DNA from: Craspedostauros australis
Taxonomy: Eukaryota; Bacillariophyta; Bacillariophyceae; Mastogloiales; Achnanthaceae
Length of the DNA stretch: 64,000 bases
Assembly (NCBI GenBank): GCA_026770025.1
Contig: JAMXDE010000032.1
Span: 248,001 to 312,000 of the forward strand
Direction of reading: 5' to 3'
Of this stretch, positions 18,632 through 59,731 are shown one piece after another. Below the pieces are notes generated by a model. The model made no database searches and had not been told where the DNA came from. It was given only the letters and a program-made list of their open reading frames with translations. The translations under genes and the position numbers were made by a program. Numbering within the stretch: the stretch's first letter is position 1; every line of letters begins with the position of its first letter.

Positions 18632-19158
18632 TGGAATCCGTGGCCATGGTTCATGTTCGTGTCGTTTCGCGGGCGACATCTGTTGGACTTGAGAACGCAG
18701 AAACGCACGGATAGATGAAGCATGGAATACATCTGCAGATGATGGTATCGTTGAACGCTATCTTCAATTCTTGCATTTGGCACCATGTCGAAGTCAAGCA
18801 CCATGCGGGCAGAGTCCCGCAAATGCTGCCACGAGCATAATTGAACCGTTCCGAGGAGCGGCGCCGACAAGACCCTTGTCCTGGGTCTCGATTTCACAAG
18901 ATGCTTGGGAGAACCACCGCTGCTGGTATCTTCCGTGAGAAATCATCCCTGCTGTGGAACGGCAGCTCGAGAAACGTACTGGCTGACACGCAAAAGGGAG
19001 AGAGGAGCATCGCTCTGTGATATTACATCCAGCGACTTCGTGCTCGGCAGCCAACATCGAAATTGCTGTGCCGCAGTGAGCACACCAACATCAAATCGCT
19101 GTCAAGAATGAGCGAGTGCTGGACTGGACTGCGTGGTCGCTCTTGATGACTGCTGTAT
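18632..19158. other. convergent spacer; left edge of the FMO duplication from 19004
   Basis: Unique spacer up to about 19003. From 19004 (GAGCATCGCTCTG) the sequence matches the region starting at 23764, so the last 155 bp belong to the duplicated block downstream of the FMO stop codon. Confidence 0.6.
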
Positions 19159-23763: not shown

Positions 23764-23912
23764 GAGCATCGCTCTGCGATATTACATCCAGCGACTTCGT
23801 GCTCGGCAGCCAACATCGAAATTGCTGTGCCGTTGTGAGCACACCAACATCAAATCACTGTCAAGAATGAGCGAGCGCTGGACTGCGTGGTCGCTCTTCA
23901 TGACTGCTGTGT

Positions 23913-26031
23913 TCACTCCTGCAGCAGCCACGGCTTGGACAGCTTCCGGGCCGGGGCATGCGTGTGGATCGACTTGAACTTGTCAGCGTCCTCGTAGTCG
24001 CGGAACGTTCTCCAGTCCTTCGGATCGGCGGATTCGTTCGCACCGTCAAAGGTCTCGTAACGATGAGCCGAATCCAGTTGCAACATGTTGACGACTTGCA
24101 GGGCGCGTTCGTTGAGTTCCTGCCGTGACCCGAAGCTGATGGGATACTTGCTGATCTTCATCACGCCAGCAACCGCCTTGGTGGATTCCGCGTAATCAGA
24201 GTGAGCACATTCTTCGATGGACTTCTCCAACTCCTCTTCGTCAATTTCTTCCCACGCTTGGTCTATGGCATCACAGTAGTTCTTATCCATGGATTCGCGG
24301 TTGTACTTCGATTGGAGCATTTCCACCGCCATCTTGTGATTGATCTGTTCCAGCTCCTCATTTGTTTCTGTCAGAACAACCCGTCCCGTGACCAGCGAGG
24401 CGAAGAACCAACCCAGAACGTCGGCATCGAACATCGGATTGTACGTAATTTGGTCCATGAACATCATTTTGCGGTTGGTGATCTGCGTGTAGAGCAGGTC
24501 AGGTAAAACGCGAAGTGAGTGGATACCGTTGAGATGAAGCAGATTCACACAACATGTATAAGCACAAACACAAGCAGAGGTGGAGCAGAGTTGCGTTGTA
24601 TTGCAGACGGGGGATGACTGTAAGAATGTGTCGATACATCAATGTGGTGGAGGTTCAACATCCGATCACGGCAGCGGTGATGTTGGTTCGCACCTGCGTG
24701 GTCACATCATGGGTTAAGAAAATCATGAGCGTCGCAGGGCGCTGAGGACTGGCAGATTGACTTACCTTGACGCCATAAAAAAAGTCGAGGAGGTGCTCGG
24801 TTGAGTAGACGCACTCCTCAGCCTTGACATCAATGCCGAATTTCCTGAGAGGATCCATCTCCATCTTCCAATCGTCTGGAACAACGAGTTTAGTGAACTT
24901 CGACTTGCCATCACCACGATGAAGCTCAGGGCGGAGCGACGGGTGCAGCATGCTCACACCAGCACCATACCCAGTGCAGAAGATGATCGTGTCAACATTC
25001 TGAATGGGAGGGAGCTCCTCGGCCTCCTCGTCGAGAAGGTACTCGCCTGGCCATTCCCAGTACACGCGCTCGAGGAAGATGGTGTTCTCATTGGTGGTCT
25101 TGAGCTGCGCTTCGACGTGGATCGTCACCCGATTGCCTGGCCAACACGTGTTGTCTAGGATGTCCGGCTCCGAGGACCGCGATAGGATGTACACATGGTT
25201 GGCGCCAAGCTTGACAAGCTGGTTTCCCAGATCCTCGGCTGAGTAAGCAGCTCCGACCAGGACAACGTTCTTGCCCTTCAGGTCTTGCTCGAGGCAGGCC
25301 GAGTCAGCAGAATGGAAGATGGTCCCAGTGAAGCCACCCTCCTTGATCCTCTGCAGCGGTTGCTTGGGGATGTTCTGCTTGCCATTGTTTCCGCCGGCCC
25401 AAACGCAGTAGTCAAAGAGCTGGGTCTTCTTGTCCGACAGCTCCATGTTCTCCGTCGTGACCTCGAACTTGTCGAGATCCTCCTTCCATTCGACACTGAG
25501 CACCTTGGTGTTGAATTGGACGAAGTGCTCGAAGAAGTCGGGGCATTTCCTGGTGACTCGCGCCGTGATGTAGTCCAGCACGGTCTGGCGCTTCAGGTAC
25601 ACCGTGATCTGCTCGTTGGCATCCTTGCTTTCGCTTTCGTTCCCGCCGCCGTTGAGGTGCTCGTCGAAGGTGTAGTCGTACATCTCCATGGCGAACGACG
25701 GTCCGTTGGTCCAGAGATTGTCGTACATGGCGACCTTCGTGTCATCAGGCACATTGTCGGCATTGTCCTCAGTCGTCTTGTTGTTGCTGGCCTTCCGCCA
25801 CACGCCGCCGTGGCTGGACGCTGCCTCGAAGCATTGCACGTCGTACTCGCAGTCAAGAAAGGGCTCCGCGGATCCTTGGTCCGACTTTTGCTCACCTTCC
25901 TTCGATGCGCGCTGTTCCTGGATGATCTTGTTGATGTTGTGGCAGAAGAACATGCCTCCGGGCCCGCAGCCGATCACGCAGACGCTGCGCTTGGGCAAGG
26001 TGGTGCCGTCCTCTCCTGTCATCGATGTCAT
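23913..26031 (-). CDS. flavin-containing monooxygenase, copy B (two exons)
   Basis: Exon 1 is 26031-24766 and exon 2 is 24482-23913. The intron is 283 bp with the same donor and acceptor as copy A, and the protein is again 611 aa. All FMO motifs are conserved: CVIGCGPGGMFF, FTGTIFHSADS, VVLVGAAYSAED, IIFCTGYGAG. Differences from copy A are scattered, with one dense cluster just before the intron (YSTEHLLDFFYG here, FYDYLPDFYHG in A) and others in exon 2 (AESTKAVAGVM against VFTKVLADAM). The start is MTSMTGEDG; the more upstream ATG present in copy A is ATA here. The Harbinger-like insertion starts 455 bp upstream of this start codon, so the original distal promoter now lies 14 kb away. The gene may be expressed from a shortened or transposon-derived promoter, or be silent. 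Confidence 0.9.
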
Positions 26032-26483
26032 CTTGGTTGCTTTGCTTGGCTTTGTTTTGCTTACTTGCTTTGCGCTCTTGGCTGTGATTGTAATTGTGGC
26101 TTTGGTTGTGGCGAAGGGCTGTGCTATTCTCGTCCGAACTTGCTGGCGGAGAGAGGTGGATACGGATACAGCCTCGACGTTGAGTATTCTACGATCTAAC
26201 AGTAATACTCACGCGTCTGGAGTGCCTGTATCAGCGGAGTGGCCTGGCCTTCGATGTTTTGTGGATGGGTTGTGATTTCGCGCGCCAATGCTGTTGTGCG
26301 AGCAATGCGGTTTTCGTGTTTGGCATTGTTGTTTTCTTCACTTTCCCTCCTCCGCGCTCTCCACGATTCATCGCCCATGATTGGGTGGTTGGCGTTGAAT
26401 TGCATGTGTTCCCCCTTGTTAAATGCGAAATGTCCACAAACGTCTAACGTATCTGCCGTTTCTGCAGAGAACGCTTTGCTCGC

Positions 26484-26486
26484 CCG
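26484..26486. repeat. target-site duplication CCG, left (Harbinger-like copy 1)
   Basis: CCG directly precedes the terminal GGAGC and is repeated directly after GCTCC at 40506-40508. Confidence 0.75.
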
Positions 26487-26531
26487 GGAGCAACGGTAAA
26501 AAATAAAAATTACCATAGGTCGGAAAATAAG
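26487..26531 (+). repeat. terminal inverted repeat, left end of copy 1
   Basis: GGAGCAACGGTAAAAAATAA and the following bases align with the reverse complement of the right end (GGAGCCATGGTAATATAGAT), sharing GGAGC, GGTAA, AAATT and AGGTC blocks over about 45 bp, so the repeat is imperfect. Confidence 0.75.
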
Positions 26532-30656: not shown

Positions 30657-33600
30657 TTACCAGCCCATAATCTGCTTGCGCAGATACTCGAAGAGAACGA
30701 CCGCCAGCCCCTTTGTGAAGATGTCGACGGGTTGTTCGGTTGTGGCGATGTGTGTGATGCAAATGAACCCTGCCTTGACCCAGTACCAGAAGAAGTGCCA
30801 CTTGGTCAGGAAGTGTTTAGTGCGTGCCGTAGGTTGATGGTTGGTGGCGAGCGCAATACATCCCTGGTTGTCCTCAAACACCGTACATTGGAGCTGCGTG
30901 TGCAGCGGCATGCTTGTGCCGGCGTTGTCGATGACTTGGCGGATGAGCTGTTGGATGGGGATGAGTGCGCGCATAGCCAGGGACAGGGCCGCGTATTCCG
31001 CTTCCATGGTGGAGAGAGCGATCTCCGTCTGGAGTTTTGACTTCCAGATCAGCGGGCACCCACCCAATGTGATGAGGTATCCGGTGCGGGAAGTGACGGA
31101 AGTTGCGCTCGTGTCGTCTTCGCGCTTGTAGAGTCCGGCGAAGTCGGCGTCCACGAAACACTTGAGGTCGAGCTTGCCCGTAGGATTGACGATCGTACCC
31201 ATGCTCTCGGTGCTCTTGAGGTAGCGCATGATTCGTTTGATCGCTTTTCCGTGGGAGCGGCGCGGGTCGTGCCCGAAGCGAGCGACTTGAGAGACGGCGA
31301 AGGCGAGGTCAGGGCGCGTGTTCGTTGTCAAATAGAGCAACATGCCGACGACGGAGCGATAGTTCCACTTCTCGTCGAAGAGTGGTCCGCCTGTGTCCCT
31401 TCCGAGCGGAATCTGTGTCGTTGGTACAGGGCATGGGCTGCAGTTAGTCATTCTTGTGGAAGCGAGAACCTTCTGAATAAGTCCTGGCTGGCGGAGATGA
31501 ATGCAGTCCGACTTGGGGTCCCTGAGTAGCTCAATTCCCAGGAACTCCGTGAAGCTGCCTTCCCGAGTGAGCTCGAACCCACGTTCGCGCATCGACACGA
31601 TGAATGCGTCCGCCACCTTCTGTGTTTTGGACGCGATGCCAGCGTCGTCAACGTAGAGCACGATCATGATCTCCGGCTTGATGAACAGACATTGTTCCTG
31701 ATCGCATGCCTTGAATCCTTCGCCGAGAAGTGCCTTGATGAGGTGATCATACCAGAGGCGGGGAGCAATAGTCAAACCGTACAAGCTTTTGTTGAGCTTG
31801 AGGCACGTGTTGGCGCCCTTGCTGGATTTGAATCCGCGAGGGAGGCAGAGGTAGACAGGCTTGTGGATCTTGGCCTGGACGAAGGCGTTGGTGAAGTCGA
31901 TAGAGGTCGTGGGCCAACCCATCACGATGGCGGTGCTCAGGAAGATACGGACAGACGACCATGCCACGACGGGAGCGTAGGTGGAGGCGTCTTCTTTCAT
32001 AAGATCGCCTCGACAGCACCAGCGGCCCTTGTATTTCTTGATGGTTCCATCTGGGAGGCGCTTGCGACGAAAGACCCACGTTCCAGGGTAGACTGGGTCG
32101 AAGACACGGGTTCTGTCCACTTCTTCCCAGGTGCCTTTTTCGGTGAGTTCCTTGATCTCCTTGCTTGCAGCCTGCATCCACTCTTCTTTGTTGTTGTCCT
32201 TGAGGGCTTCATCGAAGGAGAGAGTGTCTGGATCGTTGGTTGATGCTTTGTAGGCTGTTGAGCGTTCCGTGATGTCGAAGTCGCCGCCTGTGACGAAGTA
32301 GCTCATCATGTGGTCGTCCACGTAGATAGGGTAGTTGGTCGTGTCAGAACTGGGTTCGACAAGTGATGCAGCGTAGGCGTGTTGTTCGATGTTGACCCAG
32401 TCAGTTGACGGGATAATGTTGTTGGTGTCCAGGATCGTTGTTGGGTCGACACGCAGGAGAGAATGTGGTGATGTTTTGTTGTTCGAATTTCGTGTGTTGG
32501 GCTCTGTTAACAAAGGTTTCGCGTTGAAAGGCCACAATTCCAGAGCAAATTCGTTCACATCGCGTTCATTCGGCAACGGCCATGGTCCAGGACGCAGAGT
32601 GGTGATCTGGCGTCGGAACAGTTCGTACATCAGGCGAGCACGAGGGTGATGACCAATCTCGGTCCACACAGACTGTGCTCGCTTCCACAGGGTGCTAGCG
32701 GTTGTGTTGCTCTTTGGTGGGAGCACACCCGCACGTAGCGAAGTCTCGATATCGTCTTTGTGCCATCCGCCCCTCTTTGCGTGTCGCAGGAAGTCCAGGG
32801 CGTCGAAGTCAGGGCTTGTAGCACCGGTGCGGATGAATTCGCTAAGCTTGTTGATGAGCTTCTCTACTGCGTAGTTTGTCAGTAGGGTCCTGTTGCTCTC
32901 GCTGCAGATGAGTTGATTAAGACCCTCGTCGAAGTACGCCGTCATGTCGTTGTAGAGGTCCTCGTAGACCTCATCGAAGTCGACGAGGCCTTCGTCGTTC
33001 ATGGTGTGGGGGTCGGGGACCCACCAATCAGCCATGTTGATGTAGGCTTCCGTTTTGCGGTTGTCGTGCTTCGGCTCAAGTGGTGGGAGCGAACAGTTTG
33101 GGGCGTGCGGATTCAAAGTCTTGAAACGTAGCCTCAATCGACGTAGTAGGTAGTGGGCGTCCACCTTGAATTGGTGAAGATCGATGGAGAGAGAGTCGGT
33201 GCCTTTTCGTTGGAGAGGTTCAATTGTTTTGAGACAGTCGAGAATGGCGTGTGAGAATTTCATCAGAGAGGGTGAGTCAGGGTGCAATTGGAGCACTGTC
33301 TCATCATGTTCGTCCTCATGCATGCTGGCTACCGCTGGGCAGAGGTAGTACTCTTCGGCGTCCTCGTCATCCAGCCACGCGGCTTTGCCTCCCAAGCGTT
33401 GGTAAGTGAAACGCAGGGGTTGCTTGCGCGCTCGCGTGCTCCGCGGCCTCTGTGTTGGGACTGCTTCGTCTATAACGGGGACTGGAGAGGATGTTCGCGT
33501 GTAGACTTGGGATGCCGGTTCCTGCTTCAAGGTGATCGGCGGTACCGGTGTGGGTTCCGGTCGTGGAACCCGTGGAGTTAATTGCTCTGCTGGTGCGACT

Positions 33601-36600
33601 TCTAGCGAACTCTTTGCGGCTCCCTCAGTTGGCTGTACTCGTGGCACCTCTCCCTCTGAGGCTTGCATCCGAGAGGCCAAGGAATCGCTGAGGGGGTCAA
33701 CCATTGGCGGAGTTACCGGGAGCTCTTCGCCTGGGGGTACCGGAGCCGTTCCTGCTTCTCGCCTTTCGGGTGGTGGTTGGTATACAACTGGCGGAGAAGT
33801 TCCTGGAACCGGAGCATCATTGCGTCGCAGGCGTTCCTGATCGACGGCGTCCGACGCGAAGGTGTCCTCTTGTTCCATGGCTTCCACATCATCTTCGTCA
33901 AATGGGTACTGAAACGTCGTGTCTCCAAACATCCGCGTCCATTCATCAGACTGATAGTCGGGCAAGTGTTTGGGGTCCGTTGATATGGTGGCGAACCAGT
34001 CGTCGAACACAGCATGAAACTGCGGTGTGATAGATCCAGTCCGCAACGACAGTACTAGAGGGACCGTGGACGCGTGCTTTGTTGAGAGGCCCATGTTCAC
34101 GTATCGTTCGCCTCTTGGTTCCCAGCGCGGGATCTTGCGTCCATCAGCCAGCGCTTTGTTCAGTACATAAACGGGGCTGCCCCACACATGCAAGTTGTGT
34201 AGTTGCTTGAGCGGAAGTCGGATACGAGCAAGTATATCGTAGGGGGTTAGCCCTGTTGCTGGGTTAGGGACACGGTTGTAGATGTAAGCCGCGTGCACCA
34301 CGGCCATCGGCCACAGTTGCGCATCGAAGATGTCTGGCCAGTGGATGCTTTGGTGCATCATCATGGTCCGAGCCATTGACACAATAGTTCGGATGCTTCT
34401 TTCAGCTATCCCGTTGTGGTGATGCGCCCCAACACCGGCGAACCGGTGGACCTGATGGAAGGCCTCGAGGTGTCTCGTGTATTCTGGCGATGTGAATGTA
34501 GTGGCGTTGTCCGAGAGGTAGGATCTGACGGGTACGCCTACATCGCGGCACATAAGCTCAAACTTCTCTTTTGCTTCTAGAGTAGCATGAGTCGTGAGGG
34601 CGGCCACCGGTTCCACGTGGATGTAACCTGAAGCATGGTCTACGAAGATGGCTCCTCCCTTGTGCATGTCGGTTGGGTCGCCTTTTCCTCGTCCTGAGAA
34701 GAGGCGTCCTGGTGTGCGTCCGATGAAGTGGTCAACGGATACTTGTTGGCCAGGGAACAGGTGATCGGTGCGTAGGGCTCCTTGTCTGTCACGGACAACA
34801 TGCTGAGTTATACCTGGTGATGGGCGTCGGTGCAGTTTTCCGAACTGACACGCAGCGCAGAGGGGGAGGCTCATCACTTTGGCAGCTGCCGTGTGCATCT
34901 TCTTTGATGCTTCGGACCCTGTGAGCACACCCGATCGCAATAGGAACTTCACTCGACCGAAGGATAAGTGTCCGAGGCGATAATGCCATCGAAGGAGTTC
35001 TTTTTGCGGTTCGGATATATTCACGTTGTGTTCCGAGACAGTTGAGACGATTGAGGAGAGTGCCGATGGAAGGTCGTGGATGTTGTCCGAGCCATATCCA
35101 GTTGAGGTGGGGAGCTTCGTCGTCTTCTTGTAGATCGCGATGATTGCGTTTCGGTTGTCGCTTCCCTTAATTCCGCTGAGTTTGCAGGAGGTCTTGTCAA
35201 AGGTGATGGTCTCACCAGGGTATTCTTCCAAGAGGCTTGACGTGCTGATGAGCTTGACGCGTGATTGAGGCACATGGAAGGCGGGTAGTCGTAGCGTACG
35301 CGGGCTGCCCGTCACATCCAGAACGTGCCACTCCACAGTCCCGAGCGCTTTCACTTGGATCTTTTTCAGGAATCCATTGAGAAAAGTCGGTTTTGGAGGA
35401 GCGTTTGGGGTATCGCAAAAATCGTTGATGTCGTTGGTGACAGAGATGGATGCCCCGCTGTCCCACACAAGCTCAAAAGGTTCACTGGGGGACAGATAAC
35501 CTTCGGCCTTTTGGGGGGAGGCGAAAGCGTGACGATTAGTGAAAAAGGAGGCAAGGCCATGGAGAGTCAGGAGATTTTCGAATGAAGTGGAGCACGCTGT
35601 AGTTTCGCGTTCACCAGTCGTGAGGTCGAATTTGGGGTAGAGACGCCAAAATTCATGTGAGAGGGGTTGACCTCCAAATGTGGGATGGTGGTGCCGGTCG
35701 GTCACGCAAGGCGATCCTTGAGGTGGTGAATAGTGTCTTTTGCCATAAGTGGGTGGCTTGGTTGACAGTTTCGGACCACCTCGGTTGGGACGCCTTGGTT
35801 TCGATTTGTGAGTTTTGGTTCGGGTTCGGCGAACCCAACGACGCTTGTTTTGTTTTGGCGTCCGGTCGGACGTTTTGGTCCGCTCGATCATCACATCATG
35901 AAGACTGCGCGTTACAGCTTCATTGAAGCGGGTTGGACGAACTCGGTGTCGCTGGGTTTCTTCCTTGATCCTCGCCTTTGAGTAGGTCAGATCGTTGGAG
36001 CGGAGAGTGTGTGGCCTTCGCGGGACGTTGGTGTGTAGTAGTACCAGCGTGATGGCTGTGATCATCCAAACGTTTGCCGCTGCGATATACCATCCATGTT
36101 CAACTCCCAGTGCGATGACTTGAAGCGTTGCGAAGAACAGGATTACGCCAATGGTTCCATTGAGATAGTTGAAGGAGGTGAAGAGGTTCCAGACTAGAGA
36201 CCACCAGGTGTCTTCGTCCTGACTGGCTGCGGCGGTGAAGCACGTCCAAGCTGCCATGTCGATTTCGAGGTTATCAGTTTTGGGGTTCGCCTTGCCGGTT
36301 GCCTTAGGTTTGAAGTTGTCCTGGTGACTCTCTGTGTTGTGCGAGAGGCGCCATCGGCGACACTTGGCACACCACATGAAGGTCTTGTCGTTGACGAGCT
36401 TGCGCTGTGGCTCCCCGGGCTTGGGTGGCGTGGAAGACCACCCACGATTGGAGTTACGATTGCCGTCGTGTTCTCTGCCCTTTTTGGCTGGCACCTTCGT
36501 TCCGTTCTTCTTGGTGAACCCTCTGTGTTGTTCGAGGACGTTAGCGCTGTGCTTGTTCGTGGCGTTGTTCGCGTACGAAGTTCTAGGAACACCGGTATCC

Positions 36601-37895
36601 CTGACGCGTCGAGTGGCATGCCAGCGGTCCCCGCGTACCTCGTTGTCGTACGAGGACTGTGCCTTGTTGCAAATCGCCATCCACGTGAGGTCCTTGGCGG
36701 CCAGCTTTGGCAAGGCGTGCTCGTACGTGAATACAGGGAGACGCATGAGGATCTTCTCAAGGTCATCCTTCATCACATAGAGAGGACGTCGGTACTGTTC
36801 ACCGGAGAGGCTCTTCCCTCCCGCTTGGAGGAAGGCGTCAAGGATGTTGCGGAGGAGACGGAGGTCGAAGCGACCGGCGTCGTCGAGGCGTTTGCAGAGC
36901 GAACGGAGATGGACGGCCATGGATCCCACGTTGTCACCAGCAAACTGGTGGCTTCGAACGGAGCGAATGCGATCCGTGATCATGTCTTGCTCATCCAGCG
37001 AGTTGGCCGTGATGCTGTTCATGAACTCGATGAAGAGCGTGATGAAGTTGTTGTGGTACGTCGGCTCGATACGGTTCATCAGCTGGTCTTCGAGGGTTGG
37101 ATCAAGGCTGTCACGGAAGAAGGCTGCGGCCGTCCAGTTGTTCTGGACGTCGTAGTGGTCCCATCTTGGACTGTACTCATCGAAGTGCCTTGTGGCGTCC
37201 TCAAGAGTGAAGGAAGCCGGAGCATCGAGAACACAGGTCATCTTGGATGTGGCCGTGTCGTTGGAGATGTAGGCCATGGTGATGAGTCCGGTCTTGGACA
37301 GGTGATTGCGCACAAGGCGAACGAACTGCTGAATGCTGTTCCCTTTCTTGAACTTGTCAGTTAACCCAGTTTCGCGCTTGGATTGGTTGGTGGAGTCCGC
37401 CCCGTTGTGAAGGATTCTCTGCTGTTGGGAGTTCGTCCACATGGTCTGGGATTCGTCTTCGAGGCCCGTCCAGGTTGAGTTCGGTGCTCCTCCTGTCCAG
37501 GGGACCCAGTTGCGGCCTTGCAGGCGGAGGCCTCCCATGATGGGGGCCGTGGGCTTGCCGGAGAGGTCGGGGTCTCCATCTTCGCTTTCACTGCCGGGAT
37601 CGTTCTTCCTTTTGGTCGCTGGCGTCTCAATGTCACCAAAGAGACTCCCGCTTAGGAAGGAGGGGTTGAGGTCATCACGGGTTGTCGTCCCGGCTCCGCC
37701 TGGGTTGAGACCGGCGCGGAGAGGGGTGGCGCTGGTTCCCGACGCTGTTTGCGTGGTTGCCGCTGCCACCCTTGCAGCTTCTGCAGCTGTTTCGGCTGCG
37801 ATTGCGGCCTGTGTGAGGCGCGTATTCTCAGTGGTGAGCGCTTGGAGCTGCGCTTGCAGCTCTTCCAGCGTGAGGGGGTTAGCCTCATCCGCCAT
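30657..37895 (-). CDS. Copia-1 gag-pol polyprotein (2,412 aa)
   Basis: The start is ATG at 37893-37895 (MADEANPLTLEELQAQLQAL), a predicted coiled coil. The gag region follows, with a CX2C...HX4H-like finger (MWCAKCRRWRLSHNTESH, about residue 508) in place of a CCHC knuckle. Residues about 577-621 hold two hydrophobic segments (GVILFFATLQVIALG; ANVWMITAITLVLL), unusual for Copia. Then come protease VWDSGASISVTND, the GAG-pre-integrase WHYRLGHLSFGRVK, integrase (VSVDHFIG, LSDNATTFTSPEY, HHNGIAERSIRT for D, D, E), reverse transcriptase with VLYVDDAG, and RNase H with STMEAEYAAL. All are in one frame without a shift. Most Copia polyproteins are 1,300-1,500 aa, so this one is much longer, mainly in gag and the integrase-RT linker. 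Confidence 0.96.
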   Translation of the reverse strand: MADEANPLTLEELQAQLQALTTENTRLTQAAIAAETAAEAARVAAATTQTASGTSATPLRAGLNPGGAGTTTRDDLNPSFLSGSLFGDIETPATKRKNDPGSESEDGDPDLSGKPTAPIMGGLRLQGRNWVPWTGGAPNSTWTGLEDESQTMWTNSQQQRILHNGADSTNQSKRETGLTDKFKKGNSIQQFVRLVRNHLSKTGLITMAYISNDTATSKMTCVLDAPASFTLEDATRHFDEYSPRWDHYDVQNNWTAAAFFRDSLDPTLEDQLMNRIEPTYHNNFITLFIEFMNSITANSLDEQDMITDRIRSVRSHQFAGDNVGSMAVHLRSLCKRLDDAGRFDLRLLRNILDAFLQAGGKSLSGEQYRRPLYVMKDDLEKILMRLPVFTYEHALPKLAAKDLTWMAICNKAQSSYDNEVRGDRWHATRRVRDTGVPRTSYANNATNKHSANVLEQHRGFTKKNGTKVPAKKGREHDGNRNSNRGWSSTPPKPGEPQRKLVNDKTFMWCAKCRRWRLSHNTESHQDNFKPKATGKANPKTDNLEIDMAAWTCFTAAASQDEDTWWSLVWNLFTSFNYLNGTIGVILFFATLQVIALGVEHGWYIAAANVWMITAITLVLLHTNVPRRPHTLRSNDLTYSKARIKEETQRHRVRPTRFNEAVTRSLHDVMIERTKTSDRTPKQNKRRWVRRTRTKTHKSKPRRPNRGGPKLSTKPPTYGKRHYSPPQGSPCVTDRHHHPTFGGQPLSHEFWRLYPKFDLTTGERETTACSTSFENLLTLHGLASFFTNRHAFASPQKAEGYLSPSEPFELVWDSGASISVTNDINDFCDTPNAPPKPTFLNGFLKKIQVKALGTVEWHVLDVTGSPRTLRLPAFHVPQSRVKLISTSSLLEEYPGETITFDKTSCKLSGIKGSDNRNAIIAIYKKTTKLPTSTGYGSDNIHDLPSALSSIVSTVSEHNVNISEPQKELLRWHYRLGHLSFGRVKFLLRSGVLTGSEASKKMHTAAAKVMSLPLCAACQFGKLHRRPSPGITQHVVRDRQGALRTDHLFPGQQVSVDHFIGRTPGRLFSGRGKGDPTDMHKGGAIFVDHASGYIHVEPVAALTTHATLEAKEKFELMCRDVGVPVRSYLSDNATTFTSPEYTRHLEAFHQVHRFAGVGAHHHNGIAERSIRTIVSMARTMMMHQSIHWPDIFDAQLWPMAVVHAAYIYNRVPNPATGLTPYDILARIRLPLKQLHNLHVWGSPVYVLNKALADGRKIPRWEPRGERYVNMGLSTKHASTVPLVLSLRTGSITPQFHAVFDDWFATISTDPKHLPDYQSDEWTRMFGDTTFQYPFDEDDVEAMEQEDTFASDAVDQERLRRNDAPVPGTSPPVVYQPPPERREAGTAPVPPGEELPVTPPMVDPLSDSLASRMQASEGEVPRVQPTEGAAKSSLEVAPAEQLTPRVPRPEPTPVPPITLKQEPASQVYTRTSSPVPVIDEAVPTQRPRSTRARKQPLRFTYQRLGGKAAWLDDEDAEEYYLCPAVASMHEDEHDETVLQLHPDSPSLMKFSHAILDCLKTIEPLQRKGTDSLSIDLHQFKVDAHYLLRRLRLRFKTLNPHAPNCSLPPLEPKHDNRKTEAYINMADWWVPDPHTMNDEGLVDFDEVYEDLYNDMTAYFDEGLNQLICSESNRTLLTNYAVEKLINKLSEFIRTGATSPDFDALDFLRHAKRGGWHKDDIETSLRAGVLPPKSNTTASTLWKRAQSVWTEIGHHPRARLMYELFRRQITTLRPGPWPLPNERDVNEFALELWPFNAKPLLTEPNTRNSNNKTSPHSLLRVDPTTILDTNNIIPSTDWVNIEQHAYAASLVEPSSDTTNYPIYVDDHMMSYFVTGGDFDITERSTAYKASTNDPDTLSFDEALKDNNKEEWMQAASKEIKELTEKGTWEEVDRTRVFDPVYPGTWVFRRKRLPDGTIKKYKGRWCCRGDLMKEDASTYAPVVAWSSVRIFLSTAIVMGWPTTSIDFTNAFVQAKIHKPVYLCLPRGFKSSKGANTCLKLNKSLYGLTIAPRLWYDHLIKALLGEGFKACDQEQCLFIKPEIMIVLYVDDAGIASKTQKVADAFIVSMRERGFELTREGSFTEFLGIELLRDPKSDCIHLRQPGLIQKVLASTRMTNCSPCPVPTTQIPLGRDTGGPLFDEKWNYRSVVGMLLYLTTNTRPDLAFAVSQVARFGHDPRRSHGKAIKRIMRYLKSTESMGTIVNPTGKLDLKCFVDADFAGLYKREDDTSATSVTSRTGYLITLGGCPLIWKSKLQTEIALSTMEAEYAALSLAMRALIPIQQLIRQVIDNAGTSMPLHTQLQCTVFEDNQGCIALATNHQPTARTKHFLTKWHFFWYWVKAGFICITHIATTEQPVDIFTKGLAVVLFEYLRKQIMGW

Positions 37896-38300
37896 GGTGG
37901 ATGGCGTGGGCTTCAGAGAGGTCTTCGGACTTCACGGATCGATCTTTCTTGCGTCCTGCTGATTTCGCTTGGTCTCACTTCTTGGAAGGTGTGCACTGAG
38001 ACTCGGCGAAAGCTCTTGAGGAGGCAAGCGCTTGGTGTTCAAGCGGTTGGGTTGCTTGCTTGGCAGAGGCTGCTGTCAGGTGACACTGTCGGTCACTGGC
38101 AGGTGGGACTTTTGTCTTGGGTTGCTCGGTTTTCGAGCGATGGCGTCTGACGATGATTCAGATGCATTCGGATGAAGACCCTGAGGTCTTGCTTGAGTTG
38201 GGTTGCTCGGTTTGCGAGCTGCGCCTTTTGGCTTGGTCTCTGAGAGACCGTGCGAGCGGTTGGCAGAGGAAGTTGATCAATAGAGTTGGGTGAATGTAAT

Positions 38301-48797: not shown

Positions 48798-49575
48798 TGT
48801 CAGGAATCGGGGGTACGACTTTGCAAAGATACCCTATTCTACCGCAGCTCCCATGAGGACTGACTGGAACAGGAATGGTATTAAGTGCAAAGATACCCAT
48901 GATTGCCGCAACCCCCAATAGCACCTCCCAGACAAACCGCAACCTAGCAATCGACCAGTTGCACTCGGACAGCCCAATGGCCTTACCTGTCTTATGTGAC
49001 ATCCAAGCACCCTCATCCAGTGGCCTACTCGGCCATGTCCCAATAACGGTCGGGAACCGAGAGATCTATGACGATGGCAACACACCAGCCCTGAGTGAAT
49101 CGAATGAGCGCGACAACCAATATATCTGAACAAGTCGACGCGTCCCTGAGAACCTAATGTGAGAAAGCGAAACAGAGGCGATCCCTATTCACCCAAGACC
49201 ACGATCCAGATGACAATAAGTTCCAAGCATCCAAAGGCAACCATCGAGATGACCGGAGGGAGGAACTGAAATGAAGTGGGACCAGTGAAGTGACAGGAGA
49301 CCGAAGGAGAGGTACCTACAGGTCTACGAGTATGAACTTGACGAATGTAGGTACTCTCCAACTCTCAGCTAAACATGCGATGAACCACGATGAAAGCAAG
49401 ATGAAGATGCAGACGAAAGAAGCCAAGCTAAAGGGTGAGACCTCGAGTGGCTACTGCAGATCATGCTTGTTGTGAAACTGGAATCGAAAGGAGATGAGCA
49501 TGTTGTGCTCACAGTTCTAAAACGGTACAGACTGATAACAGATTAGTCTACTACTATAACCCCGGATTTCCAACA
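48798..49575 (+). repeat. 5' LTR of Copia-2 (778 bp)
   Basis: Starts TGTCAGGAATCGGGGG and ends GGATTTCCAACA. Canonical TG...CA termini. Confidence 0.95.
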
Positions 49576-49587
49576 CGTTTCGAAACG
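49576..49587. other. 12-bp palindrome CGTTTCGAAACG directly after the 5' LTR
   Basis: It stands where a tRNA primer binding site would be expected, yet no TGG is present. It may reflect priming by an internal tRNA fragment, as known for Drosophila copia, or another mechanism. Confidence 0.5.
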
Positions 49588-49656
49588 TTACGATTGAAAT
49601 CCAACGTTTCCATCACCCACCAACACAGCAACAAACACCACCACCACCAAGTCACC

Positions 49657-52600
49657 ATGAGTTCCTATCTTCGCAAGAGCGACCGCGTTGTCATCTTCGA
49701 CGGCAAGCGATCCAGCTGGACGGGTTGGAGCATCAAGTTCCTAGCTCGCGCCGCAAGCAAGGGTCTCGAGGACTTGTATCTCATGGATCTAGACAAGGTG
49801 GAGGTGAAGCCAGCTCCCTTCGGCCCCAGCGCCCTCATCTCCGATGTGAAGATCGAAGAGGGTGAGTCTATCGCGAAGAAGATAGCCTCGATGACTGCTG
49901 AGGAGAAGGAGGTATACAAGAATGGGCTGGCTAAGTGCGCGTTTGAAGAACTGACCATGGCGATCAACCATGAAACTACGGAAGGCGATGTCGCCTTCAT
50001 GGCTGTGGTGGGAACCAAGGGTGGACCCACTGAGAGTGGAGACCCACGCAAGGCGTGGAAGGCCCTTGAACGCATCTACGAGCAGCGTACTGCGCCTGTC
50101 AAGGCAAAGTTGTTGGCTCAACTCAACGGGATGCGGTTGAAGAAAGGTGAGCACCCAGACACGTTCCTGACCGAGATGGAAGTGCTGCGTAATCGCCTCG
50201 GTAGTACTGGCATCAAGATGGATATGCAACAGTACCACATGCTCGTACTCAACGCCCTCGGAAGGGAATACGAGACGGACGTCAAGCTCTTGGAGCTCAA
50301 GTTCGACGGTATGGAGGACACCATGACCCTTGAAGACATCCGCGAGGCTGTCAGTGCCACCTACGACGGCCGACACCTCAAGCTCGGCGGCAACAGGCGT
50401 GAGAGCAACAGTAACAGGGAAGAGACTGCATTCGCTGCAGTAGGAGGCTTCAAAGGTCACTGCCGCAACTGTGGCGCCTACGGCCACAAGAAGGCAGACT
50501 GCCGCTCCGCCCCCAAGAAAGGCAACGGCAAGAACAAGAAGAGTGGCCAAGGAGACAACAACAGCAAACCCAAGTTCAATGGGGAGTGTAAGTACTGCGG
50601 TAAGAAGGGACACAAGATCCTACAGTGCTTCAAGCTGAAGGCAGCCATGAAAGAGGCGGACTCGGCTAATGTGGCAACTGATGGAATGGAGGGAAATAAC
50701 GACGTAGCTCTTGTAATGACAGACGAGCCAATTTGTGTGCCCACCTTGGGAAACACGAACGAATTGGAAAATGTGACCAATTTGTCTGTGAACACAGGCG
50801 AGGCGAAAACACGCGACAACAACAGCAACTACCAAGCTGACTCCAAGGTAATGGAGGACGTCGCCTTTGCAGCCATCATCGAACAGACTGACACATCTCC
50901 CATTCTTTCTTTGAGACCACACAACGTCAACAACAAGATGAGCAACTCCAACCAAGGACAGGAGTCCTACTACGACGCAAGCCTCACCAACGAAGGGGCC
51001 ACCGACACCGAGGACGTGGATGACGACATGGGCGATGCCAACCGTGAAGAAGCGGCACGTCGCCCTATCTTCAACTTCGCCCCAGAGCTCTCTCGTGTGG
51101 ACCGCATGATCGGGAACTCGACAGGGCTTACCACCAACACGGCCTGGTGCCCTCTGTGCCTCAAGCGAGGACCACTCTACGCATGGTGCGTAGAATGTCC
51201 CCAAGTTCCTTTCTTCATCCAGCTCCACAATGAGCCGAGTGGCCATGTGCCAACCAACGATGAAGAGCGCGCAGAACGACGCACCAGACTCGAAAGAGCT
51301 GGCTCACTCCGCAACGCTGTGCGAGCATCGTTGAGCAACGTGCTCCGAGCCAATGAGGTGCGAAACGAACTCGCCCTATTGTGCTACGACGCTGTAGCCA
51401 CGCACACTCAGGACCGCGAGCTACAGATTGAGCCGCGCACGGTGTACTTCAAGCTACACGAGATCGGGATGATCACCACATTGTGTGTGTGTCGCAACCC
51501 GTGCAACATCAACAACAGCTTGGAATCTCGTCACTTCCAACCCTTCCCCAGCGATCTGATTTCAAGCATGACTCACCATGCCGCGAACTCCATCAGTTGG
51601 ACCCATCACCAAAGTGACAGTGGAGTCAGACTCCCAAAGCCAGAGCACTGGGTGCTTCCAATCTACTCCGAACGCGAAGAGCAACACGAAGTGGCAATGG
51701 TGGTCGGGAACACCGACAACGTCAGCGCAAGGCGCTCCTCCGTCGCACCGGACAACTACGAGACCAATACTTGGTTGGGCGATTCGGGCGCATCGTGCCA
51801 TCTCACCAACAGCGACGAAGGTATGACCAACATTCGCGTCTCCGATCAGAATGTGAAGATCGGGAGCGGACGCTTCCTCAAGGTGACCAAGGTAGGCGAC
51901 AAGCGCATGACGGTCATGCAAAGGAACGGAAGAAGATACAACGTGGTGCTCAAGTCGGTGAAGTACGTGCCCAAGTTGTGGGTTAATCTACTGAGCATCA
52001 ACAAGGCTCTCGAGAACGGATTCAACATCAGCAACCTCGGCGTCATCATGACCCTGAAGAAAGGCAAAGCCCGCATCACCTTCGACCGCATCATGGCAAC
52101 GCAGAGCGGTTTCGTGTGCGGAGTGAACATGGTGAGCAACGCCAAGGCCGACGACCAAGCTCATGTTGGCGTGTCGACCGACGCACCAGTCGACATCAAC
52201 ACAATTCATAAAAAGTTAGGTCACGTTGACGCGTACACCATCTCTCGAACAGCAGGGAGGTACGGCTGGAACGTGACAGGAAAACTGAACGTGTGTGTTG
52301 ACTGCGCGATTGGGAAATCGCGACAGAGACCAATGTCGAAAGCGACTCAACAACGAGCGAAAGGAGTCGGGGATCGATTGTTCATGGACACATCAAGTGT
52401 TCAGACACACAGCCTGGGAAAGGGCAAATACTGGCTTCTTGTGATCGACGATTACAGTGACTACTGCTGGAGTTATTTCATCACAGAGAAAAGCGACGTG
52501 GGGTCGAAGATGCTTTTGTTGTTCCAATGGCTCGAAGCGAATCAGCGAGTAACGGTTCAAAATGTCAGATGCGACAACGCAGGAGAGAATCGTTCTGCAG

Positions 52601-55308
52601 AGAAACTCTTACTTAACAAGGGATTCGCCCCAACCTTCGAGTACACTGCGGCATCGACGCCGCAACAGAATGGTCGCGTCGAAAGGAAATTCGCGACACT
52701 CTACGGCAAAGTACGCGCCATGCTGAACCAGACCCATCTACCAAAATCAACGCGAGGCAAACTGTGGGCAGAGGCTGCTCACACGGCGACGCAGCTGGAG
52801 AACATCATTGGCACGAAGTCAAGGGAACCAGCATGTATACTGTTAAACGGAAAAATCCCGAAGTATGCAAATGACCTGCGTGTGTTCGGCGAAATGGGGA
52901 TGGTACACATCGGTGGACAGGCTATCAAGGCCAAACTAGACGACCGCTCCAAACCTGCCATGTTCGTGGGATACGGAGAGTCGCACGCGAAAGGAGTGTA
53001 CCGCATGATGAACCTTGCCACCTCGAGAATCCTTATGACTCGGGACGTGACATGGTTGAATAAGTCGTATGGAGAGTTCAAGGGTATCAAGGATGCCAAC
53101 AGATCCAGAGTGATGAACACAGACGACGATTCCTCATCAAGAGACTCGTCTCCAGAGAGAGGCGTAACTTGGCTTCGTCAATCGGATAGCATGAATGATA
53201 TAGAGTCCGATGACGATGAACAGCGCAGCAGAATCAGAGAACAAGGAGATTCAGAAGGTGCTGCGCTAGAGCAGGACGACCTGCTACCCGTCCAGGAGGA
53301 TCAGGAACCAGACGAAGACATCGGCGATGAATCCGGAAGGGACGAGGATGGAAGGAGTGAGGAAAGAACGGTAGAGAAAGGACCGCCCTCGACTCCAGTC
53401 GCAACACCTGTTGCGTACGTACCAAGAATGGTCAGAGATCTCGCAGGGTATAACAATTCGCCCGTTCCTAAGGAGGACAGAGACTACGGATCCAGTGAGA
53501 CCTCGGAATCTGACGAGGAGAAGCAAGAGACTGCCCAAGAGACGGAAGCCGAAACAGCGGCGACAGAGGGGCCGAGCTTCCATACAGACGGATCGATGTT
53601 CAATAGAGACGTCGCAGGGATGATGATAGACACCACTCACGGAAAGATGAGATTGGATGACTTCATCGCTGCAAGCCAAGTGACGAATGATCGAGTCAGA
53701 CCCGAGCAAGCAAGCGTAGCTATGATGCTAGACCCTACCACCTTCGAAGAATGCTGGGACCATGCAGATCCCGAGAAGAGGAGGAAGTGGAGAGAGGCCA
53801 TCAATAAGGAGTTCAACGATATGACCAGAAGAGGAGTATGGGAGAAGATCAAGAGGAACCGAATGCCGAGAGATCGACGATGCGTGAAGACCAAATGGGT
53901 ATTCAAGGAGAAGAGGAACGGAGTCTTCCGGGCCAGACTCGTCGCCTGCGGCTACTCACAGATAGCAGGAGTGGACTTCTCAGCACACCACGCACCAGTG
54001 ATTCATGATGCAACCTACCGCATCATGCTCACTATGAAGATGCTGCTGCACATGGATAGTATGATCATCGACTTCGAGACAGCATTCTTGCATGGAGAAC
54101 TCGACGAAGAGATCTACATGCAATGCCCAAAGGGGATGAGGCATGAGGCCGACGAATGCTTGCTGCTCAAGAAGACCATCTACGGATTAGTGCAGAGCGC
54201 CAGACAATGGAACAAAAAGCTGGTCGACATTCTACTCAAGCTGGGATTTCGACAGAGCAAAGTGGATCCATGCCTTCTGATTCGGAATCAGGAAGGGAGA
54301 CTACTGCTGATAGGCACCTACGTCGACGACTGCCTATGCATCGGAGAAAAGGAGGAATTGAAGCAACTGACCATCGACATCAAAGCTGAGCAATTCGGAA
54401 TCAAGGTGGAGAACGACCTGGAAGACTACCTCAGCTGCAAGATCATCTTCAACAACGATCAGTCGAACTGTTGGGTGAACCAACCACACATCATCAAAAA
54501 CATCATGGATACATTTAAGGATGACGTGCTGACTCTACAACGATACGGAACTCCGGGAACACCAGGACAGGGTATCCAAAGAAACAGCGACCTACCCAAA
54601 GTGGACAGTAACCGACACAGCAGATACCGAAGCGGAGTAGGTATGCTACTATACTTGGTGAAGCACTCGCGACCAGACATTGCGAATGCGGTGCGCGAAC
54701 TTACCAAGGTGCTGGACGGACCATCAGCTGCAGCATACAAGGAGATGCTGCGAGTAATGAAGTTCGTATCGGACACGAGGAACTACGGACTACGAATGCA
54801 ACCAACCCCGCTGGAGAACGACGCATGGAAAATCGAGATCTACGCAGACAGCGAATTTGCGGGAGACAAGGATAATCGGATCAGTGTCGGAGGACATCTC
54901 GTCCTACTGCAAGGGGTGCCCATCGTATGGAGATCGAAGGCACAACGAAGTGTAACTCTCAGCTCGACAGAGGCGGAATACGTCGCCCTGTCAGAAGCAG
55001 GAAAAGAGATTCGCTTCCTCACGCAGTTAATGGAGGACATCGGGTTGACGATGACCAAACCAGTGGATGTATACGTGGACAATGTGGGGGCTATCTTCAT
55101 TGCCTCCAACCCGTCGACATCAGCGCGAACGAGACACATCGATATACGACATCATTTCACTCGGGAGCTGATAGACAACGGAGAGGCACGAATTCAATTT
55201 GTGCGCTCAGAGGACAACATCGCAGACGGCTTCACCAAGAACACAAAGAAGGAGATCTACGATAGACACAAAGGGAACATCATTCAATTGAGATCGACTA
55301 TGGATTAA
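49657..55308 (+). CDS. Copia-2 gag-pol polyprotein (1,883 aa)
   Basis: Start at ATG 49657 (MSSYLRKSDRVVIFDGKRSS); the frame is open a little further upstream but only from a TTG. Gag carries two CCHC knuckles (CRNCGAYGHKKADC and CKYCGKKGHKILQC, about residues 268-342). A Cys-rich segment WCPLCLKRGPLYAWCVECP (about residue 497) precedes the protease WLGDSGASCHLTN. Then HKKLGHVDAYTIS, a C-x2-C pre-integrase finger, integrase (LFMDTSSV, VRCDNAGEN, PQQNGRVERKF for D, D, E), reverse transcriptase (IDFETAFLHGELDEEIYM, GTYVDDCLCI) and RNase H (IEIYADSEFAG, SSTEAEYVALSEA). All domains are present and in one frame, so the element looks autonomous. Confidence 0.96.
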   Translation: MSSYLRKSDRVVIFDGKRSSWTGWSIKFLARAASKGLEDLYLMDLDKVEVKPAPFGPSALISDVKIEEGESIAKKIASMTAEEKEVYKNGLAKCAFEELTMAINHETTEGDVAFMAVVGTKGGPTESGDPRKAWKALERIYEQRTAPVKAKLLAQLNGMRLKKGEHPDTFLTEMEVLRNRLGSTGIKMDMQQYHMLVLNALGREYETDVKLLELKFDGMEDTMTLEDIREAVSATYDGRHLKLGGNRRESNSNREETAFAAVGGFKGHCRNCGAYGHKKADCRSAPKKGNGKNKKSGQGDNNSKPKFNGECKYCGKKGHKILQCFKLKAAMKEADSANVATDGMEGNNDVALVMTDEPICVPTLGNTNELENVTNLSVNTGEAKTRDNNSNYQADSKVMEDVAFAAIIEQTDTSPILSLRPHNVNNKMSNSNQGQESYYDASLTNEGATDTEDVDDDMGDANREEAARRPIFNFAPELSRVDRMIGNSTGLTTNTAWCPLCLKRGPLYAWCVECPQVPFFIQLHNEPSGHVPTNDEERAERRTRLERAGSLRNAVRASLSNVLRANEVRNELALLCYDAVATHTQDRELQIEPRTVYFKLHEIGMITTLCVCRNPCNINNSLESRHFQPFPSDLISSMTHHAANSISWTHHQSDSGVRLPKPEHWVLPIYSEREEQHEVAMVVGNTDNVSARRSSVAPDNYETNTWLGDSGASCHLTNSDEGMTNIRVSDQNVKIGSGRFLKVTKVGDKRMTVMQRNGRRYNVVLKSVKYVPKLWVNLLSINKALENGFNISNLGVIMTLKKGKARITFDRIMATQSGFVCGVNMVSNAKADDQAHVGVSTDAPVDINTIHKKLGHVDAYTISRTAGRYGWNVTGKLNVCVDCAIGKSRQRPMSKATQQRAKGVGDRLFMDTSSVQTHSLGKGKYWLLVIDDYSDYCWSYFITEKSDVGSKMLLLFQWLEANQRVTVQNVRCDNAGENRSAEKLLLNKGFAPTFEYTAASTPQQNGRVERKFATLYGKVRAMLNQTHLPKSTRGKLWAEAAHTATQLENIIGTKSREPACILLNGKIPKYANDLRVFGEMGMVHIGGQAIKAKLDDRSKPAMFVGYGESHAKGVYRMMNLATSRILMTRDVTWLNKSYGEFKGIKDANRSRVMNTDDDSSSRDSSPERGVTWLRQSDSMNDIESDDDEQRSRIREQGDSEGAALEQDDLLPVQEDQEPDEDIGDESGRDEDGRSEERTVEKGPPSTPVATPVAYVPRMVRDLAGYNNSPVPKEDRDYGSSETSESDEEKQETAQETEAETAATEGPSFHTDGSMFNRDVAGMMIDTTHGKMRLDDFIAASQVTNDRVRPEQASVAMMLDPTTFEECWDHADPEKRRKWREAINKEFNDMTRRGVWEKIKRNRMPRDRRCVKTKWVFKEKRNGVFRARLVACGYSQIAGVDFSAHHAPVIHDATYRIMLTMKMLLHMDSMIIDFETAFLHGELDEEIYMQCPKGMRHEADECLLLKKTIYGLVQSARQWNKKLVDILLKLGFRQSKVDPCLLIRNQEGRLLLIGTYVDDCLCIGEKEELKQLTIDIKAEQFGIKVENDLEDYLSCKIIFNNDQSNCWVNQPHIIKNIMDTFKDDVLTLQRYGTPGTPGQGIQRNSDLPKVDSNRHSRYRSGVGMLLYLVKHSRPDIANAVRELTKVLDGPSAAAYKEMLRVMKFVSDTRNYGLRMQPTPLENDAWKIEIYADSEFAGDKDNRISVGGHLVLLQGVPIVWRSKAQRSVTLSSTEAEYVALSEAGKEIRFLTQLMEDIGLTMTKPVDVYVDNVGAIFIASNPSTSARTRHIDIRHHFTRELIDNGEARIQFVRSEDNIADGFTKNTKKEIYDRHKGNIIQLRSTMD

Positions 55309-56455: not shown

Positions 56456-57903
56456 TTACTCGTAGATCCACTTGGACTCGCAGCTGTCCCACTCGCAGAG
56501 ACCCTCTGGGAACCAGTGCGCGATCTCCTTGTTGGCGGAGTCGACGGAGTCGCTTCCGTGGCAGATGTTGCGTCCGACCTCGATGCAGAAGTCTCCGCGG
56601 ATGGTTCCCATGGCGGAATCCGATGGCATGGTGGCACCGAGCATCTTGCGGCCCTCAGCGCAGGCGTTCTTGCCCTCCCAGACCATGGCGACGACAGGTC
56701 CGGAGGTCATGTAAGAGATGAGACCTGGGAAGAACTTCTTGGTCTTGAGGTCCTCGTAGTGTGTCTCCATGTGCTCCTTGGTTGGGGTGGTGAGCTTCAT
56801 GGCGACGAGCTTGTATCCCTTCTGCTCGAATCTTTTGATGATTTCTCCGACGATTCCACGCTGGACGCCGTCTGGCTTGATCTGTGAGTTGGTTCATGTA
56901 GTACGTGCGAGTAGTATGAACATTGGGGTGAATGCAGATGTTGTGCATTTTTGCATGGGTGGGGCACAATGACAATGGAGGAAGAAAACGGAGGAGAGGT
57001 TGGTACGAGTAAAGTGCGCTCGTCGTGCCCGAGTGATATGCAATTGCATGGCCTCAGCATGCCGATGCAGCGCCTGGATGCATCTCCAAGAGAGAAAGAG
57101 ACTTGTGTACAGTATCTGTACGTTGCGCGTCTCAAACCTCGGGCAGGTTGTGTCGATGCATACGAACGGTTGGTATGGTGGGGGCCATTCGGTGTCTCGC
57201 GACAACAGCTCCATCCGCAAGGTCAAGAAAAGAGTTGGACATGGACCTCTCCCGACCACCGACTTTGATGGGAATGGACGCTTCCGAGAAGTGGGACAAC
57301 ATTCTGACTCCCCGTTGTGGCCGACTGTTTGATGGAGACGCTCGATGCTGACTTGTGGCGGAACATCGGTCTTCCGTGGCAGTTGCCTGTGCTTGGCCAC
57401 CTGTCCGTGCGCCGCAACAGTTGCTTGCTCTGCTCTTTCTCCATCTCTGTCTCTCGCTGTGTCCTCCAGATGCGCTCATCAAAAATCATATTCTATAATA
57501 TAATATAATATAATAGACAACCAGCCACCCGATCACTCGCCGAACAACTCACCATGATGTCTGCCAATGCAAAAGATCATGGTTGGAACAGCAGATCGCC
57601 GAATTGTGGCAGGTGGCGGAACGAAGTACCAATACGAGAGAGAGACAGAGAACGAGGAAGACAACGAAGAATGAAGACGGTGTGAGTAAACATGCAGTAC
57701 TCCAGTCAATTGCCAATTGTGCGATACCAAAGTATTATGGTGTTATATTATACTGCTCTATCATGGTACACATCACAGGCTCCAAACAACGCGATGCCGA
57801 ATTCACGACGATCTTCGTCGAGTCGTCGCTCACAGCCTCATCTGGATGAGATGTGCCCGGAGACAGAGGAAGAGCTCCAATCTCACTCACATGTGCGCTC
57901 CAT
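56456..57903 (-). CDS. NDK: nucleoside diphosphate kinase, three exons including an 8-nt micro-exon
   Basis: Exon 3 (56881-56456) encodes [15 protein letters not shown] through the C-terminus, with the phosphate-accepting histidine in [10 protein letters not shown] (about residue 115). The missing start is rebuilt from two tiny exons: exon 1, 57903-57891 (ATGGAGCGCACAT, donor GTGAGTGAG), and exon 2, 57560-57553 (ACATCATG, between CAG and GTGAGT). Joined, they give [16 protein letters not shown], an exact NDK N-terminus, and 148 aa in total, the normal family length. Introns are 330 and 671 bp. The enzyme transfers gamma-phosphates between NTPs and NDPs. No targeting peptide is present, so it is probably cytosolic. 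Phase, splice sites and family alignment all agree. Confidence 0.9.
57495..57514. repeat. ATAAT pentanucleotide microsatellite
   Basis: About four tandem ATAAT units within intron 2 of the NDK gene. Confidence 0.8.
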
Positions 57904-58588: not shown

Positions 58589-59731
58589 CTAGTAACTGAC
58601 TTGGAAAGGCTGGAAGAAGCCTTCATCAATGGACAGCTGTGTGATCATGGCAACCACCTTGAACACTGTCTTGTGAAGCTTCATGTTGTGGCGAAATGGT
58701 TCATACAAGATCTTCCATTTCTTGAAGAGACGATTGATGGTTTCGTGTCTTGCTCTTGCTTGCTTCTTGCCGTCCCTGTCTGCGTGAGTAACGTAGTCCT
58801 TTGGTTTGCGTACGAGAGGGCCGCCGTACCCTCCGTCCGCTTCCACCATTTCGCCAGGAGCAAGTTTCCCCGCGAGCGAACGGTTGAAGATCTTTTGGTC
58901 AGGCCATTCACCACAAGGGAATGGACCATGGCACCAAACGATGTCACCAGTTTGAATGCAAATCGCCACCTCGTACCGCAGACCAGCGCCCTTGTATTTG
59001 TGACTGTACCACTTCTTCGAAAAGGGCTGAGGTTCGAGGATGCGAAAGTCAGTCCCATCCACCGTGACTTTGCACGTTCGCTGTTTGTCATTCTTCAAGC
59101 GATTCCTCCATTTAATCTGTTGTACAAATTAGCGACAGCATAAGTATTCAAAAAGGTGATGTGAGTCGTCGTTATGTAAGTGTTATCATGAGATGTATCA
59201 ATCGGAAGGGTGTTCTTCACTTACCACGCCTTTGTATCCCTTCTGAATTTCATCCATCAGAAGCCAAATCCACTTCTTAAGCGTTTTGGGATCCGCAGAC
59301 ATTTTCGATGACAGCGCAAGAACACAATCGTAGTGTCGCAAGAAATACAAGGTCCAATACAAATGCTTGGGATGACATTTCGGAACACCACGAGCATAGC
59401 TCCACATAACTAGGCACATGCGCGGAGAAAGCCCGTACAGAGAGATAAATTTTGTTTGTGTTGCTGGTTTCACTGGGTCATACGACGCATTATGCCCCAC
59501 AATGTCCAATCCAATTCTGGTTATGTCTTTCAAGTCGTAGCGCTTTGATTCATTGTTCCGCAAGTGCGCCGTGTCACAGCCAAAAGCAGCAGAGTGTGGC
59601 GTTGTGTGGCAGACAACAAAGGGTTTGTGTGAGGTCGGGTTTCGGGTCGCTGCGCTTTGTCTCGGTCCGTCAAGCTCTGCGCACCACATCATGTCACCAC
59701 ACAAACAAACACCCATCACAAAACTCACCAT
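58589..59731 (-). CDS. Harbinger-like DDE transposase, copy 2
   Basis: Exons are 59731-59729 (or longer upstream), 59542-59225 and 59116-58589, with introns of 186 and 108 bp. From the ATG at 59731 the product is 282 aa beginning M-RYDLKDITRIGLDIVGHN. Catalytic candidates: D in TVDGTDFRIL, D in MVEADGGYGGP and E in ARARHETINRLFKKW, spaced as in IS5/Harbinger DDE enzymes. In copy 1 an alternative acceptor GCTAG lies 12 nt upstream of the last exon; in copy 2 it is GCTAA, so the shared CAACAG acceptor is preferred. The companion gene is divergent. In PIF/Harbinger elements the transposase needs a second, DNA-binding protein; that pairing is family knowledge. Confidence 0.78.

Follow-up and report, generated by a model that had tools for sequence, protein, structure and literature searches.

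An 8-nt micro-exon predicted near the start of a nucleoside diphosphate kinase gene in a diatom

The window, a stretch of 64,000 nucleotides from the genome of Craspedostauros australis, carries on its minus strand a nucleoside diphosphate kinase (NDK) gene whose beginning is divided between a 13-nt coding first exon and an internal micro-exon of 8 nt. It is very likely that this is a diatom NDK of the cytosolic type with a constitutive 8-nt exon, that both introns are removed by the ordinary spliceosome and that intron 1 was a probable later gain; the 8-nt exon itself is real with high probability. The succession of a 13-nt exon, an 8-nt exon and a large exon in a diatom NDK gene had been proposed in an earlier note. 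The model is supported by the present data and is much strengthened by a paralog in which the same bases are uninterrupted. The micro-exon call is decided by the coding phase, the protein motif and the paralog, not by splice-site scores.

Gene model and identity as NDK

The two leading exons, described in the earlier note as having GTGAGT donors and correct phases, were confirmed to the base (Table 1). The count of 21 coding bases for the pair was correct, and the large exon begins at IKPDG, as had been claimed, next to CTCACAG. The micro-exon lies between TTGGCAG and GTGAGT, is thus AG/GT flanked and at 8 nt lies within the micro-exon limit of 15 nt or less; it links its neighbours in frame and supplies conserved residues. 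The joined coding sequence has 447 nt including the stop codon, is divisible by three and encodes 148 aa, from MERTYIMIKPDG to WIYE. Exon 3 lies within a stop-free frame of 145 codons.

Table 1. Coordinates of the NDK gene in the window and of its two paralogs in the same genome
Feature	Coordinates	Strand	Sequence and reading
Exon 1, coding part	57891..57903	-	ATGGAGCGCACAT; MERT and first base of the Tyr codon; phase-1 donor GTGAGT
Intron 1	57561..57890	-	330 nt; GTGAGT...TTGGCAG
8-nt internal micro-exon	57553..57560	-	ACATCATG; last two bases of the Tyr codon, Ile, Met
Intron 2	56882..57552	-	671 nt; GTGAGT...CTCACAG; phase 0 at IM^IKPDG
Exon 3	56456..56881	-	Begins ATCAAGCCA; IKPDG...WIYE and stop codon; 426 nt
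C4 paralog (locus L007), exons	1764-1895, 2257-2277, 3104-3511		Frame, GT/AG, protein alignment
C7 paralog (locus L008), exons	2695-2953, 3148-3575		Frame, GT/AG, protein alignment

The joined protein matched the NDK profile PF00334 with 188.2 bits (E = 7.4e-56, cut-off 27), residues 2-133 aligning to positions 1-132 of the 135 in the profile. When the two small exons were left out, the score fell to 176.9 bits (E = 2.3e-52) and the match started at profile position 7. Exon 3 gave the best PF00334 match among the three NDK loci of the genome (178 bits). The active-site region NxxHGSDS is present as NICHGSDS, which contains the active-site His and aligns to NIVHGSDS and NIIHGSDS of solved NDKs. 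These align along the whole length of the protein, the best being 5bxi.

Among contigs of genomes including prokaryotes, 40 of 59 NDK pattern matches were confirmed, all under titles of bacteria, archaea or prokaryote MAGs, and in viral contigs neither of two pattern matches was confirmed. The motif [EQDK][RKQ]T[FYLV] was read within the first 14 residues in 38 of 40 prokaryotic NDK loci, a count that is biased because the loci were found partly via the pattern MERTYIMI. The two misses were a locus with ERSF (L043) and one read from a match start at query residue 4 (L038).

Scans of the window for tRNAs and, at the gathering threshold, for Rfam families found nothing. A DDE_Tnp_4 transposase-like ORF (58589-59128, minus strand, E = 1.8e-9) closely precedes the NDK gene in the same orientation. 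Open frames of 2424 and 1936 aa with Copia-type RVT_2 occupy 30657-37931 (minus strand) and 49498-55308 (plus strand), respectively. A 2.7-kb duplication with 95% identity (19005-21751 and 23764-26493) carries in each copy an ORF of 241 aa and another of 521 or 517 aa; the 521-aa ORF, the only long one scanned, matches FMO-like/pyridine nucleotide oxidoreductase families.

NDK paralogs and the origin of intron 1

A search of the genome (74.8 Mb, 90 contigs) revealed three NDK loci: the window gene and the paralogs C4 and C7, the exon ends of which were placed by eye. The C4 paralog carries GAGCGCACATACATCATG unbroken, identical at 18 of 18 nt to exon 1 of the window gene after its ATG joined to the micro-exon. 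Ten of the 13 nt of exon 1 (GAGCGCACAT) are identical in C4, where the ATG of exon 1 is absent, and the identical 8 nt of the micro-exon run straight on from them. An intron of C4 is located at the same place as intron 2 of the window gene (IM^IKPDG, phase 0). In the C7 paralog, ERTFLA is followed by an intron that lies 1 nt beyond this place, in phase 1. Intron 1 interrupts the Tyr codon (T^AC); it is present in the window gene only and absent from both paralogs. These structures indicate that C4 shares the intron that follows the micro-exon, C7 nearly so, and that only the preceding one is peculiar to the window gene. The introns of the paralogs measure 361, 826 and 194 nt. When the window gene and the two paralog loci were aligned directly as DNA, similarity was detected in exon 3 only, none in introns.

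The C4 protein has a hydrophobic N-terminal leader with AHAFAPQ, which resembles a diatom plastid-targeting presequence, and the C7 protein has a basic leader containing RSFSAS, of mitochondrial appearance. The NDK from the window appears to be of the cytosolic type since it has no such leader. The silicon transporter family PF03842 marks diatoms, and together with the C4 presequence its richness in this genome supports the diatom label. The family gave at least 88 match rows outside the window (e.g., L013, L014 and L015), at least 32 of them scoring 760 bits or more (near full length), and 28 of these 32 were without stops. Locus L013 was 96.2% identical to L014 and 94.8% to L015, with the similarity stopping no more than about 100 bases from the matched region. 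Judged by the three loci compared, this looks like a very large and fairly recent expansion.

The ancestral gene may have had a first exon like that of C4, followed by the intron after IM in phase 0 that is shared with this paralog. A later gain of intron 1 inside the Tyr codon would then have detached the last 8 nt of the first exon as a separate sliver. The absence of intron 1 from two paralogs makes its gain in the window gene the most likely course, its loss from the paralogs being possible. In a tree of 45 rows the five eukaryotic NDK rows grouped together (99/94); the tree does not order the window gene, C4, C7 (flagged as a long branch) and 5bxi. A repeat search that skipped simple repeats found, at its sensitivity, no second copy of intron 1 in the genome, and for intron 2 none except one 35-base match on contig C8, so neither was retained as an introner-like repeat. 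The search thus gave no hint that intron 1 came from an introner-type source.

A 21-nt internal exon of its own is also found in the C4 paralog (ATCAAGCCAGATGGTGTCCAG, coding for IKPDGVQ), in phase 0 on both sides and with the donor GTAAGG. We lean slightly towards a history in which the 8-nt exon was born by the later gain of intron 1 beside an older intron, the 21-nt exon of C4 hinting that such slivers are common in the lineage. If this is true, the birth of an ultra-short constitutive micro-exon is visible within a single diatom genome.

Chance, splice sites and competing gene models

The earlier note had found only one way to restore the ERT start, a claim that was tested by enumeration of structures in the region 58500-56881 (start at any ATG, first exon 3-120 nt long, internal exon absent or 1-60 nt long, no intron shorter than 40 nt). 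Six structures gave ERT-x-x-x before IKPDG. Only one of them, with YIM, was NDK-like, and the other five ended in YEA, SCD, LLH, SSS and CEA. A scan of phase-0 exon ends (at least 18 nt, GT or GC, up to 63 kb) revealed no other NDK-like six-residue end. Intron 2 holds the sole other ERT-like string (ERTLL at 57021), which was absent from the ends scanned.

The role of chance was evaluated with dinucleotide-preserving shuffles of the intronic region, exon 1 being held fixed. Of 5000 shuffles, 417 contained the strict NDK motif at an AG/GT pair of any kind and 4 contained it with a GTRAGT donor. Any NDK-like small exon flanked by YAG and GTRMGT was obtained once in 10000 shuffles, the exact MERTYIM with the same flanks in none of 10000 and the bare string AG-ACATCATG-GT in 3 of 10000. 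These counts make the protein motif weak by itself and strong when combined with the donor.

Intron models, some of them ambiguous, were derived for TCP-1 and kinesin genes of the genome. The ten introns measured 194-669 nt in the top-ranked models and 194-687 nt in the chosen ones, with GTRMGT donors in 6 of the 10 top-ranked introns. Beside them the lengths of the two NDK introns are not unusual; both exceed the mean of 142 bp that a passage of PMC5859163 gives for introns of Phaeodactylum tricornutum. The suggestion that exons of this size imply special splicing is unsupported, as the intron lengths are usual, both donors fit the local GTRMGT and plant analogues are common.

Splice sites were scored with three training sets. 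Set 1 combined nine of the ten modelled introns (TCP_C19 was dropped as ambiguous) with the three introns of the NDK paralogs. In this set the second-ranked model was taken for TCP_C12a and KIN_C31b since the donor looked canonical, and one of the added paralog introns follows an exon that, like the micro-exon, ends in ATCATG; such choices favoured consensus donors. Set 2 contained all ten top-ranked introns and set 3 seven of those. The two NDK donors ranked 1 and 2 of 60 GTs with each set, and with set 2 the donor at 57834 scored 6.4 versus 6.5 for the two used donors. The acceptors are unremarkable: by training set, the one at 57560 ranked 5, 21 and 20 of 53 and the one at 56881 ranked 13, 6 and 19. 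By summed site score the micro-exon ranked 5 or 2 of 168 candidates with sets 2 and 3, respectively, with four or one short candidates above it. With set 1 it was the sole candidate passing both thresholds, a uniqueness that was lost with sets 2 and 3.

The micro-exon ends in an ATG in the right frame, and a transcript from upstream of 57553 would thus give a nearly complete NDK. Transcription might start within intron 1, with ACATCATG as the end of an alternative first exon and translation from ACATC-ATG into MIKPDG... without ERTYI. We hold this to be very improbable because it leaves the strong donor of exon 1 (rank 1 or 2 of 60) unexplained, loses the ERT residues found in both paralogs and turns the 18-nt identity with C4 across the junction into a coincidence. 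The use of a different short exon is still less probable. The chief competitor, an 8-nt ATGAGGCT (57841-57834) that would produce MERTYEAIKPDG, places EA at the position of IM and LA in the paralogs, and its bases adjoin GAGCGCACAT in no paralog. It would also reduce intron 1 to 49 nt, as against at least 194 nt in the ten modelled and three paralog introns. This exon is nevertheless in frame, open and flanked by CAG and GTGAGC, and its summed site score is higher than that of ACATCATG with the ten top-ranked introns and slightly lower with seven (8.6 vs. 8.9).

Least probable of all is a decaying or non-spliced gene copy with a small-exon match due to chance, given the open frame of exon 3 and its PF00334 match, the best in the genome, on the one hand, and the frequency of about 1 in 10000 for a micro-exon with consensus sites on the other. 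The three-exon NDK gene with ACATCATG as an internal micro-exon is therefore preferred.

Predicted splicing and comparison with known micro-exons

Skipping of the 8 nt in this three-exon gene is predicted to yield a frameshifted product of 79 aa without the NICHGSDS region, and retention of intron 1 or intron 2 to stop translation after 6 or 26 aa, respectively. A regulated switch would have both inclusion and skipping meaningful, and here the skip product is frameshifted. Such a frame shift in a housekeeping gene suggests that inclusion is probably near-constitutive. Exon skipping and intron retention both occur in P. tricornutum according to a part of PMC5859163, so partial skipping of the micro-exon may be possible by analogy.

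The ordinary spliceosome would remove both introns, probably in two separate steps, since 8 nt offer scarcely enough room for the two splice-site complexes together. In plants, the introns beside micro-exons are mostly removed successively, the upstream one often later, as described in a section of PMC8831610. By analogy, intron 2 could be removed first, joining ACATCATG to exon 3, and intron 1 thereafter; this order is suggested because the joining creates a normal acceptor exon.

A limited literature search, judged by titles and the beginnings of abstracts, returned nothing on diatom or algal micro-exons, its titles dealing with mouse synapse proteins, plants and plant families, and fungal mitochondria; one combining NDK, diatom and intron returned no title on diatom NDK genes. 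The terms "diatom" and "nucleoside diphosphate" are absent from the main text of PMC8831610 and PMC12409088. Micro-exons in diatoms may be under-reported, as far as the titles in this limited search indicate. Animal Group I NDK genes (Nme) belong to the same protein family and, in the portion of PMC3078890 concerned, likewise have several introns, two sponge NDK genes having four and three short ones.

The 8-nt NDK exon is a fresh instance of an already known type of feature. Automatic annotation would probably shorten this housekeeping enzyme or begin it at the wrong place, and the present model corrects its start. For ultra-short exons beyond plants and animals, the gene is a clear test case in which the paralog serves as an internal control. 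The micro-exons of the animal neuronal SRRM4/nSR100 programme are likewise very short internal exons, but, as a passage of PMC8831610 states, they mostly have lengths divisible by 3, keep the frame and are regulated, whereas the NDK one has 8 nt and breaks the frame if skipped. The ultra-short micro-exons of plants, described in parts of PMC8831610 and of the MEPDB paper (PMC12409088), are, like the NDK case, internal coding exons no longer than 15 nt. Plants commonly have exons of 1-15 nt, with 2398 reported in 10 species in an excerpt of Yu et al. (2022, PMC8831610). The plant examples differ in lineage and gene, and the NDK micro-exon is predicted from the sequence. In the parts of these sources concerned, plant micro-exons are often missing from annotation and their omission can shift the frame, as it does here, and some plant gene copies hold the micro-exon bases inside a longer exon, just as the C4 paralog does.
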